DNA of 64,000 nucleotides. Source: Actinomycetota bacterium (lineage in GTDB: Bacteria; Actinomycetota; Acidimicrobiia; Acidimicrobiales; JAMCPL01). Below are positions 7,304 to 18,248 of the stretch, piece after piece. The notes below the pieces were generated by a model. The model was given only the letters and a program-made list of their open reading frames with translations. It ran no database searches and was not told where the DNA came from. Each line of letters begins with the position of its first letter. Positions within the stretch are counted from its first letter, which is position 1. The position numbers and the translations under genes were made by a program. Where the stretch lies: the NCBI GenBank assembly GCA_023379675.1, contig JAMCPL010000011.1:1-64000 (forward strand), in the 5' to 3' direction.

Positions 7304-8323
7304 CTATGGCCTATCTCCTATTTCTGCGTGGGCACACCCATCCAGCATCCACTCGTTTTCGACCTTCCATCCGGATGCGGACTTGTGCTCAAGGATTATC
7401 TCGGCATCTGCCACCTCACAATTGGTGCATGTGACAGGTGAGCCGTCTGGATCCTTGTAAGCGACGGCGATCGCTTCGGTTTCCGGTATGGTGACATTCA
7501 CCCTCACCCGCCAGCGTCCGAGGGTTCCATATACTGACCAGCGGGGAAGGCCGAGCGAGGTTCTGAACAATGGTGCGACCAACATCGGGTCGCGGGGCCA
7601 GTCGGTATCGCCAAGTCTGAGCTGGAGAAGCGTGAATGGTGGTAGGGCGGACAGCCCAGGTCGAGTAGGCACTGCGGACACGATTTCCAGGACATTGCCG
7701 TCCCCTAGGTCTGCATGGAGCCATCCCCATTTCTTCGAGTTGCTGTGGGAATATATGTGGGCAAGGTTGCCTCTGGTCTGGCCGGACAGTTCGAAGGGAG
7801 CACTGGTGGTACCTTCGAGATGGATCTTCCCGGATACCGAGACACTCGGAATGGGAACCACCTGTGCTCCCGGGAGTATCTCTTTCGACCATGCCCAGGC
7901 AGGAAAGGTGAAGAGAGGTCTCGTGGCACCCTCGCCGTCCAGCGTCAGGTCCCATTGCAGCTGATGCAGCTTGCCCGACAATCGCGATGGCGTCAAAGTA
8001 ACACCGTTTACTGTCGGTATGAATGGGGTGGAACTATCCTCCCTATTCCAGCCAGACCCTTCATCATCTACTTCCACAGGACCGTAGCGTTCCATGACTG
8101 GGCATTCTCCCTTGTGGAACAAGGCAGCCCATCCATGCATGAACGGCTTTCCGGTTTCCCCGATGGGGGAGATCAGCTCATTATGCATCCAGAAACCGGA
8201 ACGGCTGCTGGGGTCTGATATTGTGGCGTACCAGACCTCCAAACGCCCGCGCTGGCGACGCCACTTCATGGAGAGCGTATCGCGGCCACTCGCGCTGTAT
8301 CCCATGCCGGTACTGTTTCCCAT
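7304..8323 (-). CDS. CrtC/AttH-like beta-barrel protein (lipocalin-like)
   Basis: A 339-residue protein with the pattern LEVWYATISDP followed by GFWMHNELISP near the N-terminus and a second beta-rich half, reminiscent of the hydroxyneurosporene synthase (CrtC)/AttH two-lipocalin fold found in many actinobacterial proteins of unknown role. Family assignment is from style, not from a decisive motif. Several starts are possible (8323, 8305, 8269); the first is kept because TAGGAG lies 14 bases upstream. The gene is divergent from the GH1 gene across 142 bp and probably heads an operon with the aldehyde dehydrogenase. A hydrophobic-ligand role would fit that neighbour, which is inference. Confidence 0.55.
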   Translation of the reverse strand: MGNSTGMGYSASGRDTLSMKWRRQRGRLEVWYATISDPSSRSGFWMHNELISPIGETGKPFMHGWAALFHKGECPVMERYGPVEVDDEGSGWNREDSSTPFIPTVNGVTLTPSRLSGKLHQLQWDLTLDGEGATRPLFTFPAWAWSKEILPGAQVVPIPSVSVSGKIHLEGTTSAPFELSGQTRGNLAHIYSHSNSKKWGWLHADLGDGNVLEIVSAVPTRPGLSALPPFTLLQLRLGDTDWPRDPMLVAPLFRTSLGLPRWSVYGTLGRWRVRVNVTIPETEAIAVAYKDPDGSPVTCTNCEVADAEIILEHKSASGWKVENEWMLDGCAHAEIGDRP

Positions 8324-8465: not shown

Positions 8466-10154
8466 ATGCTGTTGGGGATGGTAGGCGAGACTGACAAAAC
8501 CAGGGAAAATGCATCCAAGCAAGGGGCTGGTTCAGTCACTTCGGGGGCTGGTAGCCGTAGGCAGGCCGGCTCACGAGGACAGGCCAGATCTGGTCGACAG
8601 GCTGGAAGGCAGGGAGGGTCACACCGCGCCGACCAGCAGGCTCCTTCGTCACCCCAGCAGGCAGGGTCACAGCAAATACTGCCTGCTGGATTTCACTTCG
8701 GGGTTGCCACGGCAGGTTTTCAGGTGGAGGGTGGTTTTAACGGGCCAGGTGAGCCTGCGAACAACTGGTTGTGGTGGGAGATGGCCGGACGGGTGGAGCC
8801 ATCCGGTATTGCTCTCGACTTCTGGAACCGCTATGAAGAGATGCTCGACCTGGTTCAGGCCATGGGATGTGACGCATTCCGGTTTGGTATCGAATGGGCT
8901 AGGGTGCAGCCAGCTGAAGGTGAAGTTGATACGCTGGCGCTTGATCGTTACGTGGCGATCGCGAAGGCGTGCAGGGAGAGAGGATTGGAGCCTCTGGTCA
9001 CGCTTCATCACTTTACGCATCCAGCTTGGCTCGGAGAGGATTTTTGGCTGATGCCCGATGCTCCTGGCATATTTTCCGAATGGGTCGACCTGGCGGTGAA
9101 CCGTCTGAAAGAGCACGTTTCCAACTGGGTCACCATCAACGAGATGAACGTGATAACGATGGGGTCTTATCTCTTCGGCATATTTCCTCCAGGCCGTAAG
9201 TGGTCTATTGCGGAGGCGGCAACCTGTGCGGATCATCTGATGGCTGCTCATATAGCTGCTTACGAGGTCATTCACCGGCTGCAGCCCGATGCTGACGTCA
9301 CCACCAACAATACTTGTGTCAGTATTTACGAGTTCGACAAGATGCTCATAGATGTCATGGCAGCCCGGATCTACGGGGTGTCCCGTGATGACTTGGATGC
9401 CTGGATAGGTGAGCGCCGCCGTGCATGGTATGCAGAACTGCCTCCTGCAGGCAGGGCTGAACAGGTAGTCAGGCATCTTGCGGCAAGATACTCTCCCGTA
9501 GGCGCTTCCAAAGTATTGAAACGCGAAACGGGCGGTGGCGCTGCTCGATACCCTCGGGCAGAGACCTTGCCGGCCAGGTTGCCGGCCAGTCAGATGGCCG
9601 TGGATGCAGTGTATGCAAGCGACTACGAGATGGCGTTGGACTTCGTGGGGATAGATTACTACGATCCGGTATCCACTCATCATGTAGTCCTGCCTGGGCA
9701 CCGGACTTCTGGTGGGAGAGTATGGTTCCCTGCTAAGCCTCTATGGGAGGATCCCGAGAATCCCGAAGGATTGATCACGTACTGTCGTGCGAACGTGTTA
9801 CCCGGTAAGCCATTGTGGATTGTGGAAAATGGCATGTGTAACAGGGTGCACAATGGCAGGTCCTACCCGCGCCTGGATTTGCTCCAACGGCCGGATTACA
9901 TACGGGACAACCTTGCTGCCATGGTGAGTGCAATCGACGCGGGAATCCCCGTAGGGTCCTACTTTCACTGGACTCTTGCGGATAATTACGAATGGGGCAG
10001 TTACCAGCCTAGGTTTGGCATACATGGTGTCGACAGGGAAAGGGGCGCGAAGATATTGCCAAACGATGCAATGGGATTGGATTCAGCCAGTATGTACAGA
10101 AACGTAATTACCGGGTTACGTCAGGGTGATCGGAGCGTACTGCACCACCGGTAA
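8466..10154 (+). CDS. Glycoside hydrolase family 1 (beta-glucosidase-like)
   Basis: A 562-residue GH1 enzyme hydrolysing beta-linked glycosides. The domain starts near residue 73 (LPAGFHFGVATAGFQVEGG). The acid/base glutamate is E226 in TINEMN, a variant of the usual T-x-N-E-P, and the nucleophile is E454 in WIVENGM (usual I/V-T-E-N-G). Other family blocks are present: HHFTHP, DFVGIDYY and YFHWTLADNYEW. The first 70 residues are low-complexity Gly/Ser/Arg/Gln sequence with tandem RQAGSRGQ-like runs, with no signal peptide; no start codon lies closer to the domain, so this extension is probably translated. The substrate is unknown. It runs convergently towards the GMC oxidoreductase, five bases apart. 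Confidence 0.9.
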   Translation: MLLGMVGETDKTRENASKQGAGSVTSGAGSRRQAGSRGQARSGRQAGRQGGSHRADQQAPSSPQQAGSQQILPAGFHFGVATAGFQVEGGFNGPGEPANNWLWWEMAGRVEPSGIALDFWNRYEEMLDLVQAMGCDAFRFGIEWARVQPAEGEVDTLALDRYVAIAKACRERGLEPLVTLHHFTHPAWLGEDFWLMPDAPGIFSEWVDLAVNRLKEHVSNWVTINEMNVITMGSYLFGIFPPGRKWSIAEAATCADHLMAAHIAAYEVIHRLQPDADVTTNNTCVSIYEFDKMLIDVMAARIYGVSRDDLDAWIGERRRAWYAELPPAGRAEQVVRHLAARYSPVGASKVLKRETGGGAARYPRAETLPARLPASQMAVDAVYASDYEMALDFVGIDYYDPVSTHHVVLPGHRTSGGRVWFPAKPLWEDPENPEGLITYCRANVLPGKPLWIVENGMCNRVHNGRSYPRLDLLQRPDYIRDNLAAMVSAIDAGIPVGSYFHWTLADNYEWGSYQPRFGIHGVDRERGAKILPNDAMGLDSASMYRNVITGLRQGDRSVLHHR

Positions 10155-10159
10155 GCAAC

Positions 10160-12139
10160 CTACTGCTGATTGATAATGCTTTTTGCGACCGCCAGCGAGA
10201 GCGCCATTATGGTAACTTGCGGGTTCACTCCGGGGCAGGTTGGCATCAGGGATCCATCAGCTACCCACACTCCACTCGTGCCACGCAGTGATCCAGTTGG
10301 TTCAACGGGGAACCTGCCGGGATCCGATCCTGCTGCAACTGTCCCGACGGGATGAAAAGCTGCCGGGTGCAGTGACTTTGGATCAGAGCGAGAGATGGTA
10401 TCGTCCAATTCCTGCTCGGATCGTACCGGTGGTTGTCCGGGAATACCTGTGAGGATTTCCATGGCGCCTGCGGCCAGCAGGACCTTGCCGGCTCCCCTTA
10501 TGGCCTCCAGGAGCCTCCTGCCATCTCGCTTCGAGAGATTATAGATCATGGTCCCCCGGTTCCTTCCGATGACTCTGCCAACCGACAAATCGGCCACCAT
10601 CCCACCGAGGGTGCCGAGATGATCCGCTTGTTCCAACTCGGTCACCAGCTTGCTTCCGAAGCCCGGCAGGATCATGGATCCCATACCTGGTGGAGTGGAG
10701 GTGGCTTCCAGCAGCACTCCGTGTTCGGCATGGAGCTGATCGACATATGCGCTCTGTAGAACGCCATGCCATGCCACCACTGGCTCCTCGAAGCGACCCG
10801 CCACCCCTATGGCAGGATGAATGGCCATGTTCATTCCAATCATGTGGTGTTTCCCGAGTCCACTTCTCCTGAGGAGTAGCGGACTTTCCGTTGTGCCCGC
10901 AGCAACGATCACGCGAGGAGCGAGCACCTTGAAGGCGGATCCGTCTGATCGGTACGCCAGTACACCTGCAGCCCGCCCGTTCTCCACCATGATTCGGGAG
11001 ACTCTTGCTTCCGAGATGATCCGAGCTCCTGATTCACACGCTCTGGGAAGGGCATTCATATGTACTCCGAACTTGGCGTTCTTGGGGCATCCTATGGCGC
11101 ACTGGCAGGTGCCGCCGCATCCGGGGGCGTTCCTGTCCAGCGGACCGGTGGACCATCCCAACTTTTCGGCGCCGGACATTATGGTCCTGCCATTTATGCC
11201 CATTACATCAAGCGGAACGGGACCTACCTGGATCAGCTCCCACACCCTGTCCAACTCCGGCATGAGGGAGTCCGGATCCGCAAGGCTGAAGCCTGCTTCA
11301 TCGCGCCAGTCGAGCAATACTTCCTTTGGGGTCTTGTAGCATGTTCCCGAGTTGACCACCGTCGTTCCACCTACCGCCCGTCCTATAGGGAGTACGACCG
11401 GAGGCTGCCCCAGCGCCACAGTGGATCCCCCGTCTCTGTACAACCCTGCGAAACGGTCCAAGGGATGGATGGTACGGAACTCTTCAACGGTCCAGCGCCG
11501 TCCTTCTTCGAGAATGGCGACGCTCATGCCTGCGCCTGCCAACTCCATTGCAGCCATGGCTCCACCTGCGCCGGACCCTATCACGACAGCGTCGAACTGA
11601 CTGACCTGAGGCCAGGATATCGAGGGAGTTACGTTCAGGACAGCATCTGGTCTAGCAATATCGGTATTGCGCGCGGTTTCGAGTATCTCGGCCGCTGCCA
11701 TTTCCGACCCGGCAGCCAGCAGCACAAGGGCCTTTAGGCCTTCCATGGCGTTGCTACCAAGCGTGGTGCGGGTCAGCAATGACATCACCCGTTCCTGGTC
11801 CTCCGTAGTGGCGTTCTGCAGGGATCTGCCGGATACGGCTCTTGTCAAGAGATCTACCGCACCGGCGCCCATGCGAGTTGCAACGTTCACATAAGCCGGC
11901 TGGTGGGCGAGGAATCGCTTCAGGGTTGCCGTGTTGGCTGCAATGTCACCTTCGTTAACGTGCACAGGGAGGATTGCCCTGCAGAGCCCTTCCAGGGAAC
12001 GATCAGCTAGCCTGCCAGCCAGCGTAGGCCTTGCCATGGGTTGCGTTGTGCCGGTGGTCATTCGAGAAGAGGTTTTGAACTTCATATCAATAATACTAGT
12101 GGAGCGTTCCGGTGGAGTATAGTGCGCAGCATATACCAT
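10160..12139 (-). CDS. GMC family FAD-dependent oxidoreductase (alcohol oxidase/dehydrogenase type)
   Basis: A 659-residue flavoprotein. A dinucleotide-binding motif VVIGSGAGGAMAA lies at 186-197 with an acidic strand end VAILEEG; the GMC signature follows at GRAVGGTTVVNSGTC. A cysteine-rich loop (GCGGTCQCAIGCPKNAK) and the C-terminal active-site region (HPVGT, then PGVNPQVTIMA) are as in long-chain alcohol/cholesterol-oxidase-like GMC proteins. About 180 N-terminal residues precede the FAD motif. A shorter start at 12082 (MKFKTSS) is possible; neither has a good ribosome site. It is a paralogue of the gene at 36863-39019. It likely oxidises an alcohol group; the substrate and acceptor are unknown. 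Confidence 0.88.
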   Translation of the reverse strand: MVYAAHYTPPERSTSIIDMKFKTSSRMTTGTTQPMARPTLAGRLADRSLEGLCRAILPVHVNEGDIAANTATLKRFLAHQPAYVNVATRMGAGAVDLLTRAVSGRSLQNATTEDQERVMSLLTRTTLGSNAMEGLKALVLLAAGSEMAAAEILETARNTDIARPDAVLNVTPSISWPQVSQFDAVVIGSGAGGAMAAMELAGAGMSVAILEEGRRWTVEEFRTIHPLDRFAGLYRDGGSTVALGQPPVVLPIGRAVGGTTVVNSGTCYKTPKEVLLDWRDEAGFSLADPDSLMPELDRVWELIQVGPVPLDVMGINGRTIMSGAEKLGWSTGPLDRNAPGCGGTCQCAIGCPKNAKFGVHMNALPRACESGARIISEARVSRIMVENGRAAGVLAYRSDGSAFKVLAPRVIVAAGTTESPLLLRRSGLGKHHMIGMNMAIHPAIGVAGRFEEPVVAWHGVLQSAYVDQLHAEHGVLLEATSTPPGMGSMILPGFGSKLVTELEQADHLGTLGGMVADLSVGRVIGRNRGTMIYNLSKRDGRRLLEAIRGAGKVLLAAGAMEILTGIPGQPPVRSEQELDDTISRSDPKSLHPAAFHPVGTVAAGSDPGRFPVEPTGSLRGTSGVWVADGSLMPTCPGVNPQVTIMALSLAVAKSIINQQ

Positions 12140-12291: not shown

Positions 12292-12397
12292 ACTCCACGT
12301 ATATGCGGAACAAGCCAAGTGAGGCGGGTTGTAGGGATCGGAGTTGCGAGAATGTGCTGGCTGGCGGGAACGACCTAATTGTGATAAGGAGTATGTG

Positions 12398-15300
12398 ATG
12401 GAGCTTTCCTCCCTGATCTTTCCGCAGATGAAACAGCCACAGCGAAAAGCAGTATTTGCTGGGGTTTGGGTGCTCGGGATCGCAGTAGCCTACCTTATCT
12501 TGCGCCAGGTGCTTCCTTCAGGACTGCCTCCCGGAGTGATTTTCCAGGGGGTGGTACTGGGTGGCCTCACATCGCTGACGGCGATGGGGCTGGTACTGAT
12601 ATACCGGGCAACCAGGATATTCAATTTTGCCCAGAGCGCCATGGGTGGCATAGCAGCAGCTGTTGCGGTTATTGCGGTTACCGGTGAGCGCTGGAGTTAC
12701 TGGGTGGCGATTATTGTAGGTCTCTTGGTGGCTGTGGTCGTAGGTGTGCTCATAGATTTGGTCGTGGTCAAATGGTTTTCCAAGACTCCAAGACTGATAT
12801 TCACGGTTGCCACCATTGGCATAGCACAGATACTCGGGGCCGGCGAGGTGGCGCTCCCAGATATGTTTCACAATATCTCTCCTACGACCACTTTTACCAC
12901 TCCGTTTTCGGCGTCTTTCACTATCAACCCCATTACTTTCAACGGTAATTATGTCATTGCTCTGGCCGTTGTCCCTCTTGCACTGCTGGGGCTTTACTGG
13001 TTCTTCCAAACTACCGATACGGGCATAGCCATACGAGCTTCCGCGGATTCCGAAGAGCGTGCAACCCTACTCGGTATACCCGTGAAGCGGCTGTCCATGA
13101 TCGTTTGGGTGGTGGCGACAGTACTGTCGGGGGTAGCCGCCATACTGACTGCGCCGATAAAGGGCATAAGCCTGGGGGTTGCCACTGGCCCCGAATCATT
13201 GCTTATCCCGCTGGCGGCCGCCGTGCTGGCCGGTATGGATTCATTGCCGATGGCAGTGGTTTGGTCAATCGCGTTAAGGGTTCTCGATCAGGGTGTCTAC
13301 TGGTCCTATCACCAGAGCACGTACGTAAGAGTGGCTGCGTTCTTCTTCATACTCGTAGCGTTGCTTTTCAGGCGTCGCGAACAGAAGCGAACGAGTGACG
13401 CAGGACTTGGGGGATATGTGGCTTTTCGCGAGATACGCCCCATACCGGTGGCACTGGCAAGGATGAAAGAGATCAGGGCTGCTCGCCAGATTGGATATTT
13501 CACTCTGGGTGCGGTAGTGCTAGTGGTACTCCCCCTGGCATTCAACGCCACATGGTTGACTACGTTTACCTTTGTTGCGATATATGGCCTGCTGGCCGTA
13601 TCGGTGGTGATGTTGTCAGGATGGGGCGGTCAGATCAGCCTTGGGCAGTACGCGATTGCGGGAGTGGGCGCAGCTACCACGGGAGCACTTCTCGTCCATT
13701 TACATGTCGAACTCCTGCTTGCCATGCTGGCATCAGCGTTGGTGGGCGCAGTGGCGGCAGTCGTGATGGGTATACCGGCATTGCGCATTCCGGGGTTGTA
13801 CCTTGCAGTCATTACACTGGCATTCGCAGTGATGACATCCACCTGGCTGCTGTCCTCCAATTTCTTCCCGCTATTCAATCCTGCCAACGTGCCCAGGCCA
13901 GTGCTTTTTGGTCGTTTCGATCTGAACTCGCAACGTTGGATGTACGTGCTGTCGGCTCTTGTATTGATTGTGGGGATATACCTAGCTGCCAATTTTCGTA
14001 ATTCCAGAGCCGGTAGGGCCATAGTGGCCATGAGGGACAATGCCAGAGCGGCGTCGGCTTACGGTATCAGCTCCTTCCGGGCCAAGTTGACGGTATTTGC
14101 CATCTCAGGGGCCATAGCTGGGTTGGCTGGTTCCTTGCTGGTCCTTCAGAACCAGGGCATAGGGTATGCAGGTTTCGATCCCAACGAGTCAGTCATGATT
14201 TTTGCCGTGGTCGTGGTTGGCGGTCTTGGATCTCTTTCAGGGGGGCTGCTTGGGGCAGTGTTCTTCGAGCTAATGGGGCATTTGCCTGGTGCATGGCAGT
14301 ATCTGGCTCAGGGAGCTGGGTTGCTTGTCATCCTGATGATAGCTCCTGAAGGGCTCGGGTGGCTCTATTTTGCGGCTAGGGACCGCTTACTTGGTACGTT
14401 TGTGAAACGCCGGGGCATTACCGGAGATCTGCACGGCGCGCCTGCCCCATCTGTAACTGTTGCTTCTAAGGTTGACGCAGATGGGGAGGCGATCCTTGCG
14501 GATACTTTGGGTGACTATGATGGCAACCAGGGATGGGATGGGGGAGCCCGCAGGAGCTTGGCGCGCTCTGCCGCCCTGCGCCTTGGCGCCCTGGAAGATC
14601 TGGAGGTTGCCATGGATGCCCAGCAGGATGCCGGCAAGTCACATCTGGTCGCACCCTATGCAGGACCTCCAACGGGCCGGGTACCGATAATGGGCGTCAG
14701 TGATGTCGATCTTTCAATAGGCAGTTCGCAGGTACTCTACAACGTCAATTTCAGTATTGCCCAGGGAGAAGTACTTGCCCTTCTGGGTACCAACGGAGCC
14801 GGCAAGACGACCACCTTGCGGACTCTGGCAGGACTGATGCAGCCTGGAGAAGGCAGGATTTCCTTTGTAGGCCGAGATATCACACGTGAGAGTGCTACTG
14901 ATCGCGTGAGGTCAGGACTTGTGGCCGTGCTGGGAGGAAGAGGCATATTTCCATCTCTTACTGTAGAGGAGAACCTAACTATGGGTGCATGGATGGTGAA
15001 GCATTCCAAAAGTGATGACGCGTTGGCGTTTGTCGAAGCTGCCACTGACCGGGTATTCCAGCTCTTTCCCCAGTTGCATAACAGATTGCGCAGCAAGGCG
15101 GAATTGCTTTCCGGAGGAGAGCAGCAGATGCTTGCGCTCAGCCAGGCTCTGCTCTGCAGGCCGAAGTTGCTGATGATTGATGAGTTGTCTTTGGGACTTG
15201 CTCCCACGGTTGTCAATGACCTGCTCAAAGTTGTCACCAATCTCGCCAAGAGTGGTGTGACCATCGTGGTCGTGGAGCAGTCGATCAATGTCGCCACGGC

Positions 15301-16495
15301 GATATCCAATCGGGCCGTTTTCATGGAAAGAGGGAGGATACGTTTCAGCGGCCCGACGCCGGATCTTTCCCAACAGCCAAAGCTGTTGCGCTCGGTTTTC
15401 ACTTCTGCGGCCATGAAAGCCAGGGTAGGCAGGACCGCCACGCAAGGTTTCGCCTCGGCTTCAATGAGCAGCGAGCATCCAACGGAATCGCGCGAGCCGG
15501 AACCCACACAGAGTCGCGTACAGCCTGTAACATCCAGCGCAGCACCCGCGCAGCCCGGTATTGCGATGGATGGTATGGCTTCGAGCGGCATGATTACGAG
15601 CGCCGTTGGTTTGGGTGGCATTGCAGCCAGTGAGAGGAAAGCCGGCAATGGCTGTAGCACTGTGCCGGCATTTGAAGTTGTAGGCGTGTCGAAGCAGTAT
15701 GGAGGGGTTGCTGCGTTGCATGATGTGAGCGTGCAGGTGGGTCCTGGCGAGATAGTTGGTATTATCGGTACCAACGGTGCGGGCAAGACGACGCTTTTCG
15801 ATGTTTGTTCGGGATTTCTCAAGCCTGATCAGGGGAGGGTATTCCTGTCGGGTGAGGACATCACCGCGCTAGCTCCCTCGCAGAGGGCTTCGAGAGGGCT
15901 TGGCAGGGTATTCCAGGACGCAAGGCTTTTCCCAGCCATGACGGTGCTTGATGCCATAGCGACAGCCTGCGAGCAGCACGTGGCGGTGAAGGACCCGATT
16001 GCATGTACTCTAGGCCTTGCTGCCGCCAAGGAGTCGGAGGCGGAAATACATGTCAAGGCCCTGGGACTGCTCAGGGATATGGGATTGGAACGTTTTCGCG
16101 GCAGCTTCGTAAGCGAGCTTTCAACTGGTACCCGCCGTATTCTCGAGTTCACCTGTCTCCTCGCACATGAGCCGAAGGTGCTGTTGCTGGACGAGCCGAC
16201 CTCGGGCATAGCGCAGCGTGAGTCAGAGGCTTTGGGTGAGCTGATACTCGGATTGAGGGAAGAGACGGGGGCAGCATTTCTGGTCATAGAACACGACGTT
16301 CCGCTGGTTGCTTCCATCTCTGATCGCCTTGTCTGTATGCACATAGGCGAGGTGATAGCTGAAGGCGACACTGCCGATGTCCTAGAGAACTCTGAAGTGA
16401 TGGCGTCATATCTTGGAACGGAGGAGGACTCACCGCTGTCCGGAGGTGGCACGCATGGTAAGGACGGGGGAGTACTTTCCGGAGTAGGGAACTGA
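12398..16495 (+). CDS. Fused LivH-LivM-LivF-LivG branched-chain amino acid-type ABC importer
   Basis: A single 1365-residue polypeptide contains all four core parts of a hydrophobic-amino-acid-type ABC importer. Order: LivH-like permease (about 10-345, with LVLIYRATRIFNFAQ), LivM-like permease (about 364-650, with GWGGQISLGQYA), first ATPase of LivF type (Walker A GTNGAGKTT near 797, signature LLSGGEQQ near 903, IDELSLGLAP), a Ser/Pro/Glu-rich linker, and second ATPase of LivG type (Walker A near 1123, FQDARLFP, IEHDVP). The second ATPase has LSTGTRR in place of LSGGQ (near 1238). These are normally four genes. The ATG at 12398 follows AAGGAG and is preferred over an upstream frame extension to 12344. 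The binding-protein gene follows 88 bp later. The amino acid or other carboxylate imported is unknown. Confidence 0.92.
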   Translation: MELSSLIFPQMKQPQRKAVFAGVWVLGIAVAYLILRQVLPSGLPPGVIFQGVVLGGLTSLTAMGLVLIYRATRIFNFAQSAMGGIAAAVAVIAVTGERWSYWVAIIVGLLVAVVVGVLIDLVVVKWFSKTPRLIFTVATIGIAQILGAGEVALPDMFHNISPTTTFTTPFSASFTINPITFNGNYVIALAVVPLALLGLYWFFQTTDTGIAIRASADSEERATLLGIPVKRLSMIVWVVATVLSGVAAILTAPIKGISLGVATGPESLLIPLAAAVLAGMDSLPMAVVWSIALRVLDQGVYWSYHQSTYVRVAAFFFILVALLFRRREQKRTSDAGLGGYVAFREIRPIPVALARMKEIRAARQIGYFTLGAVVLVVLPLAFNATWLTTFTFVAIYGLLAVSVVMLSGWGGQISLGQYAIAGVGAATTGALLVHLHVELLLAMLASALVGAVAAVVMGIPALRIPGLYLAVITLAFAVMTSTWLLSSNFFPLFNPANVPRPVLFGRFDLNSQRWMYVLSALVLIVGIYLAANFRNSRAGRAIVAMRDNARAASAYGISSFRAKLTVFAISGAIAGLAGSLLVLQNQGIGYAGFDPNESVMIFAVVVVGGLGSLSGGLLGAVFFELMGHLPGAWQYLAQGAGLLVILMIAPEGLGWLYFAARDRLLGTFVKRRGITGDLHGAPAPSVTVASKVDADGEAILADTLGDYDGNQGWDGGARRSLARSAALRLGALEDLEVAMDAQQDAGKSHLVAPYAGPPTGRVPIMGVSDVDLSIGSSQVLYNVNFSIAQGEVLALLGTNGAGKTTTLRTLAGLMQPGEGRISFVGRDITRESATDRVRSGLVAVLGGRGIFPSLTVEENLTMGAWMVKHSKSDDALAFVEAATDRVFQLFPQLHNRLRSKAELLSGGEQQMLALSQALLCRPKLLMIDELSLGLAPTVVNDLLKVVTNLAKSGVTIVVVEQSINVATAISNRAVFMERGRIRFSGPTPDLSQQPKLLRSVFTSAAMKARVGRTATQGFASASMSSEHPTESREPEPTQSRVQPVTSSAAPAQPGIAMDGMASSGMITSAVGLGGIAASERKAGNGCSTVPAFEVVGVSKQYGGVAALHDVSVQVGPGEIVGIIGTNGAGKTTLFDVCSGFLKPDQGRVFLSGEDITALAPSQRASRGLGRVFQDARLFPAMTVLDAIATACEQHVAVKDPIACTLGLAAAKESEAEIHVKALGLLRDMGLERFRGSFVSELSTGTRRILEFTCLLAHEPKVLLLDEPTSGIAQRESEALGELILGLREETGAAFLVIEHDVPLVASISDRLVCMHIGEVIAEGDTADVLENSEVMASYLGTEEDSPLSGGGTHGKDGGVLSGVGN

Positions 16496-16583: not shown

Positions 16584-18248
16584 ATGCAGAAGAAATTATT
16601 CGCCGTTGTGCTCCGTTACAAGGGGCTTCTGATAGGCGTAGTTGCGTTTGCCCTTGTGATGGTCTTTGTTCCCTCGCTTCACAGCACCGGGGTTGCGACA
16701 CCATCGAGCCCGAATGGAGTAGGGTTCATTCCTTACAAGCCTCCCGGTGAGGGGCTGGCGGGTACGACGGTGGGTGGATATGTGTGTACGCACGGTCGGA
16801 GGCAGGTTCCCTGGTCGTTGTACGCTCCGTACTGCGTGCCGCAGTGGCACGGTAACAACGGTGGAGCGACCGATAAGGCTGATCCGCTGGCTGTGACTGC
16901 AAAGACCATCAACGTATCGGTCAATTACGCCAGCAATCAAGGACTTTGCTCAATTCTCGCCAGCATGGAGAGCGGTTCGATTGCCTCAGAGGCACTCTTC
17001 AAGAGGATGACAAATATCTATGTATCCCTTTTCAACAAGGATTTCGAGCTCTGGGGTAGGAAAGTTGTTATCAAGTACTTCAACGGGCAGGGTTGTTATG
17101 CAAATGAATTGCTGGGGCAGGACCAGACAGAGGCCGAGGCGGATGCCCAGACAGCGGCGTCTCTCCATGCTTTTGCCGATATGTCAGAGCTATACTCCGC
17201 TCCACCTTACGACACAGCTCTGGCGCAGTACCACATAATCGCCATAGGCGGAGAGTTCATGCCGCACTCCTGGTTTGCCCAGAACGCACCTTACGAATAC
17301 TCCACCATTGCCAGTTGCTCCAAATTCATGCAGAGTGTCGTCGAGATAGTGAAGAACTCCATCTACGGACTACCAGCCATATACGCTGCTGGAAAGCACT
17401 TGCATGGTTCACCTGCCAAAATAGGCCTAATATATCCCAATGCTGCCTTTTTAAGGCCATGCGCTCAGGAGGTTACGGGCGCCCTCAAGGCTGCGCATAT
17501 TCCCGTGGCGGCTCAGTTTGTCTACTCGATCACCAACTTTAGCAGCGTGGAGAGCGAGTCTACTGCGGTTATGGCCGATTTTCGCAACAAGGGAGTGACT
17601 ACGGTGATATGCGGATGTGACCCGGTTACACCCGCGTTCATGGCAACTGCCGCTGCACAGCAGAACTACTATCCTGAGTGGGTACCCATGACGCTTGGCG
17701 ACGGGATAACTAGAGGCATAATGGGCTCCCCTGCCGATAAGGCGGAGTGGGCACACGCAATTACGGCGTTTGTCCAGACGACTCCGCCACAGGATCAGGA
17801 GTACGCACTTGCCTACAAGCTGGCAACTGGTCACCAGTTGCATGGCCTTGTCAATGTGGTGACCGCTGGAGCGGCGTATGGGAGTGTACTCCTGCTGTTC
17901 AGCGCCCTCCAGCAGGCAGGACCTGATCTTACCCCGCAAAGTTTTCAGAGAGGGATGTGGTCGCTTCCCCCGTCCGTGCAGGACGCATCTATGGGGGGGT
18001 GGGCGTTCCTGCCTGGCCATTATACGACCCCGTCGAATTTCCAGATAACCTACTGGAACAACAGTGCACGGGGAGCCGTGACTCACGGAGTCGGCGCTTT
18101 CGTTGCCTGTAACCATGGTGTGTTTTATACCTATGCTGGATATAACGAGGGGCCCAGCTTGCCAGTGGGTAAGCAACTTGAATGTTTCGGAAGTGGTGGA
18201 TCGTCGGCACCTTGGGTACCGCCGCCTTCCGCGATCCCCAAACCTTGA
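16584..18248 (+). CDS. Periplasmic-type substrate-binding protein of the fused ABC importer
   Basis: A 554-residue type I periplasmic-binding fold (Peripla_BP_6/LivJ style): the part from TINVSVNYASNQG to the end shows alternating beta-alpha segments with FELWGRKVVIKYFNGQGCY and GSPAKIGLIYPNAAF. The N-terminus is one hydrophobic anchor (about 9-33) without a lipobox, so it is probably membrane-tethered on the outer face rather than a lipoprotein. The ATG at 16584 has GGGAG seven bases before it; the frame is open upstream to a TTG at 16521 but that lacks a ribosome site. It is longer than usual LivJ proteins (about 370-400) because of a 90-residue N-terminal region before the domain. Cotranscription with the importer is likely. 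Confidence 0.85.
   Translation: MQKKLFAVVLRYKGLLIGVVAFALVMVFVPSLHSTGVATPSSPNGVGFIPYKPPGEGLAGTTVGGYVCTHGRRQVPWSLYAPYCVPQWHGNNGGATDKADPLAVTAKTINVSVNYASNQGLCSILASMESGSIASEALFKRMTNIYVSLFNKDFELWGRKVVIKYFNGQGCYANELLGQDQTEAEADAQTAASLHAFADMSELYSAPPYDTALAQYHIIAIGGEFMPHSWFAQNAPYEYSTIASCSKFMQSVVEIVKNSIYGLPAIYAAGKHLHGSPAKIGLIYPNAAFLRPCAQEVTGALKAAHIPVAAQFVYSITNFSSVESESTAVMADFRNKGVTTVICGCDPVTPAFMATAAAQQNYYPEWVPMTLGDGITRGIMGSPADKAEWAHAITAFVQTTPPQDQEYALAYKLATGHQLHGLVNVVTAGAAYGSVLLLFSALQQAGPDLTPQSFQRGMWSLPPSVQDASMGGWAFLPGHYTTPSNFQITYWNNSARGAVTHGVGAFVACNHGVFYTYAGYNEGPSLPVGKQLECFGSGGSSAPWVPPPSAIPKP

Follow-up and report, generated by a model that had tools for sequence, protein, structure and literature searches.

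One reading frame for four importer domains

The window, a stretch of 64,000 nucleotides from an Actinomycetota bacterium, holds at positions 12398–16495 of its forward strand a single uninterrupted frame of 1365 codons, whose 1365-residue product carries its domains in the order H-M-F-G, that is, two membrane channels and two ATP-driven motors in one polypeptide. The features of the gene and its surroundings are as follows, with the source of each assignment in brackets.

7304–8323, minus strand: 339-aa protein with no Pfam match and an AttH/hydratase-like predicted fold, a kept neighbour (neighbourhood comparison; model)
8466–10154, plus strand: GH1 family glycosidase, a kept neighbour (NCBIfam; neighbourhood comparison)
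10160–12139, minus strand: GMC-family oxidoreductase, a neighbour kept in some relatives (Pfam; neighbourhood comparison)
12386–12391, plus strand: Shine-Dalgarno-like AAGGAG, 6 nt 5′ of the ATG at 12398 (read from sequence)
12398–16495, plus strand: fused H-M-F-G importer core, 1365 aa (intact ORF; Pfam; frame conserved in 26 genomes)
12455–13447, plus strand: LivH-like permease domain, residues 20–350 (BPD_transp_2; domain HMM)
13490–14437, plus strand: LivM-like permease domain, residues 365–680 (BPD_transp_2 at 388–633)
14423–14665, plus strand: permease-to-ATPase (M-F) linker, about residues 676–756, fast-evolving and of low confidence in a homologue's model (congener comparison; homologue model)
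14666–15412, plus strand: LivF-like ATPase domain, residues 757–1005, with an LSGGE signature and Q961 at the H-loop position (Pfam; NCBIfam; motifs)
15107–15121, plus strand: LivF-type signature LSGGE, residues 904–908 (motif reading)
15278–15280, plus strand: Q961, the switch (H-loop) position of the LivF-like domain (motif comparison)
15413–15658, plus strand: F-to-G linker, residues 1006–1087, 30–39% identical to three more distant congeners (congener comparison)
15659–16432, plus strand: LivG-like ATPase domain, residues 1088–1345, with an LSTGT signature and H1299 as switch (Pfam; NCBIfam; motifs)
16118–16132, plus strand: LivG-type signature LSTGT, residues 1241–1245 (motif reading)
16584–18248, plus strand: Peripla_BP_6 binding protein, hydrophobic segment at its N terminus, likely to partner the fused chain (Pfam E 5e-12; homologues beside most H-M-F-G genes)

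Pfam recognised in the fused chain two BPD_transp_2 stretches (204.6 bits, threshold 26.8) and two ABC_tran stretches, and both families were matched by all 31 of the 31 aligned full-length homologues. The best NCBIfam matches were UrtE/LivF for residues 767–992 and UrtD/LivG for residues 1092–1341, and each ATPase shows a legible Walker A, signature, Walker B and switch motif. These searches, together with the open frame, bear out the claim of the first-pass annotation that four importer core domains lie in one intact chain. The features that mark membership of the HAAT family are present, namely two BPD_transp_2 permeases, a LivF-like and a LivG-like ATPase, and a nearby Peripla_BP_6 gene; the separate-subunit core, which is the norm of the family but not essential to it, is replaced in the window by the single frame, and since partial fusions occur elsewhere in the HAAT family we treated the chain as a variant of it. 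Judged by its sequence, 12398–16495 encodes a complete HAAT-type (Liv/Urt) importer core as one continuous protein. A narrower assignment as a urea transporter, prompted by the UrtE score, was dropped, because the whole-protein score sums both ATPases and passing the UrtE cut-off consequently says nothing about urea.

The window's genome is a draft of 33 contigs, so that a fused frame created by sequencing or assembly deserves consideration, and the first-pass annotation had itself named an error hiding stop codons as a way in which its claim could fail. The frame recurs independently in many genomes, with one-frame copies in relatives at 95% (G003), 77% (G002), 64% (G005) and lower identity, and a second H-M-F-G chain, 48% identical, lies elsewhere in the window's own genome (C8; L042). 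When the window was compared with four congeners, nucleotide differences within the four domains fell mostly at third codon positions, and both the M-F linker (56–60% identity in the three congeners furthest from the window) and the F-G linker stayed open and in frame. The third-position bias and the open linkers exclude hidden stops or a frameshift, and the independent genomes and the same-genome paralog refute an artefact, to which we assign practically no probability.

A different concern is that the fused precursor might be cleaved at loose linkers, or that F might also be made from an internal start, either of which would yield an ordinary multi-subunit working complex. Both ATPase linkers evolve fast (30–60% identity to the more distant congeners) and are of low confidence in the homologue's model, and an in-frame ATG at 14612 is preceded by GGAGGT just 5′ of the LivF-like domain. 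That start, however, is common only to the window and its 95%-identical relative, candidate starts precede F in 3 and G in 1 of the 23 clade members as against 9% of random stretches, and no conserved cleavage motif was noticed. Conserved internal initiation is therefore unsupported, candidate starts before F or G being rare, at roughly the frequency of random stretches, and we regard a working complex of separate pieces as unlikely, even though some internal initiation, perhaps weak, is possible at the window's own 14612 ATG.

Predicted assembly and unequal ATP sites

We modelled with AlphaFold2 a 1200-aa stretch of a homologue from genome G008 that is 52% identical to the window protein, using an alignment of 38 family members. 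The model reached a mean pLDDT of 85 and a pTM of 0.85, and its low-confidence regions lay mainly at three linkers. In Foldseek comparisons its tandem ATPases aligned with the DppD/OppD proteins of mycobacterial importers (TM normalised by target 0.58–0.70), and no single solved chain matched all four domains well. The proposal that one chain forms the transporter core thus gains from the intramolecular assembly predicted for this homologue, and the model supports, rather than proves, assembly within one chain; we infer a sandwich geometry for the ATPases. Among ABC proteins, those built as one full-length chain are chiefly familiar as exporters, for example ABCB1, and whole-length Foldseek matches to ABCB1 did appear, but they were weak: the alignments were poor (TM about 0.3, rmsd above 22) and did not reveal an exporter transmembrane fold matching from end to end. 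Moreover, the permeases belong to the importer-type BPD_transp_2 family and a binding-protein gene accompanies the chain, so that we hold either export or a role outside transport very improbable for this protein.

The first-pass annotation had also pointed to LSTGT in place of LSGGQ in the second ATPase as a reason why the two ATP sites may be unequal. The second ATPase does read LSTGT, but the motif is no peculiarity of the window protein, since LSTGT or close variants are standard in the LivG-type domain throughout the lineage, fused or not, and more distant LivG-type proteins carry different signatures that are likewise off LSGGQ. The annotation had missed a matching departure in the LivF-type domain, a glutamine at the H-loop position. 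Within the lineage, the LivF-like domain combines an SGG signature with this glutamine in 73 of 73 cases, and the LivG-like domain has histidine at the switch and threonine or another non-glycine residue at the third signature position in 75 of 75. The distant homologues (L078–L157), almost all of which are separate genes, show glutamine in F (75/84) and histidine in G (77/77), with glycine as the third LivG signature residue in just 2/77; overall, 148 of 157 homologues carry glutamine at the LivF-type H-loop. Because the same departures occur in distant, mostly separate-gene homologues, the asymmetry predates the fusion, and unequal ATP sites are, as far as these motifs tell, a family trait not produced by it.

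ABC ATPases pair head-to-tail in known structures, and if the domains of the fused chain do likewise, the Walker motifs of F, Q961 and LSTGT would come together in one composite site, and the Walker motifs of G, H1299 and LSGGE in the other. The Walker A lysine, the catalytic glutamate, and the serine and glycine of the signature are invariant or nearly so across lineage members. In the window protein both ATPases retain the catalytic glutamates and Walker lysines, and LSTGT retains its serine and second glycine, from which the odd site (F Walker motifs, Q961, LSTGT) may be slowed rather than dead. Across the family, an off-consensus LivG signature goes together with glutamine at the LivF switch, both predicted to fall in one and the same composite site, so that most of the work would be expected of a single ATP site.

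We consider it probable that the chain is a single-chain, binding-protein-dependent HAAT importer core with a fixed 1:1:1:1 domain ratio and unequal ATP sites. In such a transporter the LivH-like and LivM-like permeases would make the channel, beneath which the LivF-like and LivG-like ATPases would dock and close, presumably head-to-tail, upon ATP. A separately encoded and probably membrane-anchored binding protein, putatively that of 16584–18248, would bring the substrate. One copy of every domain per chain would fix H:M:F:G, the site built from the F Walker motifs, Q961 and G's LSTGT would be off consensus and that built from the G Walker motifs, H1299 and F's LSGGE canonical, and transport would presumably run inwards with unequal ATP turnover at the two sites.

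Binding protein and neighbouring genes

The Peripla_BP_6 gene starts 88 nt 3′ of the fused gene, and its product is the likely partner of the fused chain by sequence and position; a search with the binding-protein profile found no solved relative at E 0.01. Upstream, between 5758 and 12139, an aldehyde dehydrogenase accompanies the GMC, GH1 and 339-aa genes, and the GH1 glycosidase carries the catalytic motifs NEMN and ENG, as read from its translation. At least one of the GMC, GH1 and 339-aa genes is present at the H-M-F-G loci of G003, G002, G004, G013, G049, G038 and G052, and none of the three turned up at any other of the loci searched in the class or phylum. These recurrent neighbours may mark a substrate pathway. 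The model of the 339-aa protein (pLDDT 72) resembles AttH, kievitone hydratase, pericyclases and 25-phosphosteroid lyase; as a lead only, these resemblances and the neighbour genes suggest a hydrophobic or aromatic substrate, taken up as such or as a glycoside.

Distribution and history of one-chain importers

The architecture search that the first-pass annotation had proposed, carried out with domain profiles, yielded 41 loci with H-M-F-G in one frame, spread over 26 genomes and 19 families, among which L184 has an additional MFS domain and L073 matches the H and M profiles weakly. Strong matches to the chain (E 1e-170 or better) occurred in 31 of 138 genomes sampled from the order, most frames being at least 1200 aa long, with four-domain content checked in part of these frames. 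One H-M-F-G member belongs to another class within the phylum (G238, L247). The window's genome shares the four-domain fusion with others across one actinobacterial order, and with some outside it. As background we used the best-matching loci of many other bacteria, about 80 in all, an uneven sample picked by generic pattern matches; none held an H-M-F-G chain, and nearly all consisted of separate genes, for the most part arranged H-M-G-F, apart from a few fusions of two or three domains (MG, HM, GF, HMF).

All four domains of the chain are homologous to those of LivFGHM/UrtBCDE, whose separate-gene homologues share with it the LivG-type signature off LSGGQ and the LivF-type H-loop glutamine, but these systems use four genes, usually in the order H-M-G-F, where the window has one gene in the order H-M-F-G. 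LivM-LivG fusions, seen at 3 of the roughly 80 distant loci, likewise join a HAAT permease to an ATPase, but they unite two domains only and leave H and F separate. The closest relatives are two-protein systems of the same class, in which H and M are fused and F precedes G as in the window, but in which an MFS domain, lacking from the window type, stands ahead of F on the second polypeptide. The fused tandem ATPases of the RbsA/NupO and DppD/OppD types also present two importer ATPases per chain, but their permeases are separate proteins. For RbsA/NupO one degenerate ATP site has been reported, and ATPase fusion alone has been called relatively rare in prokaryotes (PMC11466899).

On a concatenated-domain tree, the window's own clade was H-M-F-G in 23 of 23 members with full support, and among wider relatives H-M-F-G chains were interleaved with H-M + F-G and H-M + MFS-F-G pairs. 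The architecture label requires 9–10 changes on this tree, at least 7 of the changes being forced by well-supported branches. A single origin of the fusion was rejected when all H-M-F-G rows were held together (p-AU 5e-30, on a quick LG+G4 tree, with the group defined by architecture but after the first tree had been viewed). One-chain forms thus seem to have arisen or to have been split repeatedly, the change counts fitting the fusion and the fission direction alike.

In the sister form, an MFS domain is fused to the LivF- and LivG-like ATPases in proteins of about 1000 aa (L195:5949-9050, L200:5931-8930, L210:4556-7834, L219:3203-6214 and about 26 other loci); these proteins match Pfam MFS_1 with E-values down to 1.5e-34 and are adjoined by an H-M permease fusion. 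The pair is possibly a hybrid of a secondary and a primary transporter. In one case, L184:3371-8557 on the plus strand, a single 1729-aa frame carries five domains, H-M-MFS-F-G (MFS_1 E 9e-20).

Full-text searches of the open-access literature turned up neither a described four-domain HAAT chain nor an MFS-LivF fusion. We expect one-chain HAAT proteins to be present in sequence databases under generic names. We see an even chance that these proteins make up an undescribed class of bacterial importers, with the whole core in one chain, repeatedly reached by fusion or left by fission within one Actinomycetota group, with a sister form that joins MFS to the importer's two ATPases, and with one five-domain chain. 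Binding-protein-dependent importers normally comprise several subunits, a build that complicates stoichiometry, structural studies and single-ATP-site mutagenesis. In a naturally fused version with its domain ratio fixed, each HAAT ATP site could be mutated singly, and the interleaved one- and two-chain forms would be a ready-made set for studying why the subunits of importers become joined.

Lesser degrees of fusion were also encountered. Streptomyces longisporoflavus (L122) has an H-M-F fusion of 1054 aa beside a separate G, and Nocardia asiatica (L082) a G-F fusion of 903 aa. The window's own genome encodes, besides its H-M-F-G chain, an H-M fusion whose G and F stand alone (L043, G000:C18) and a set of four separate genes (L044, G000:C14), so that a single genome combines three degrees of fusion.
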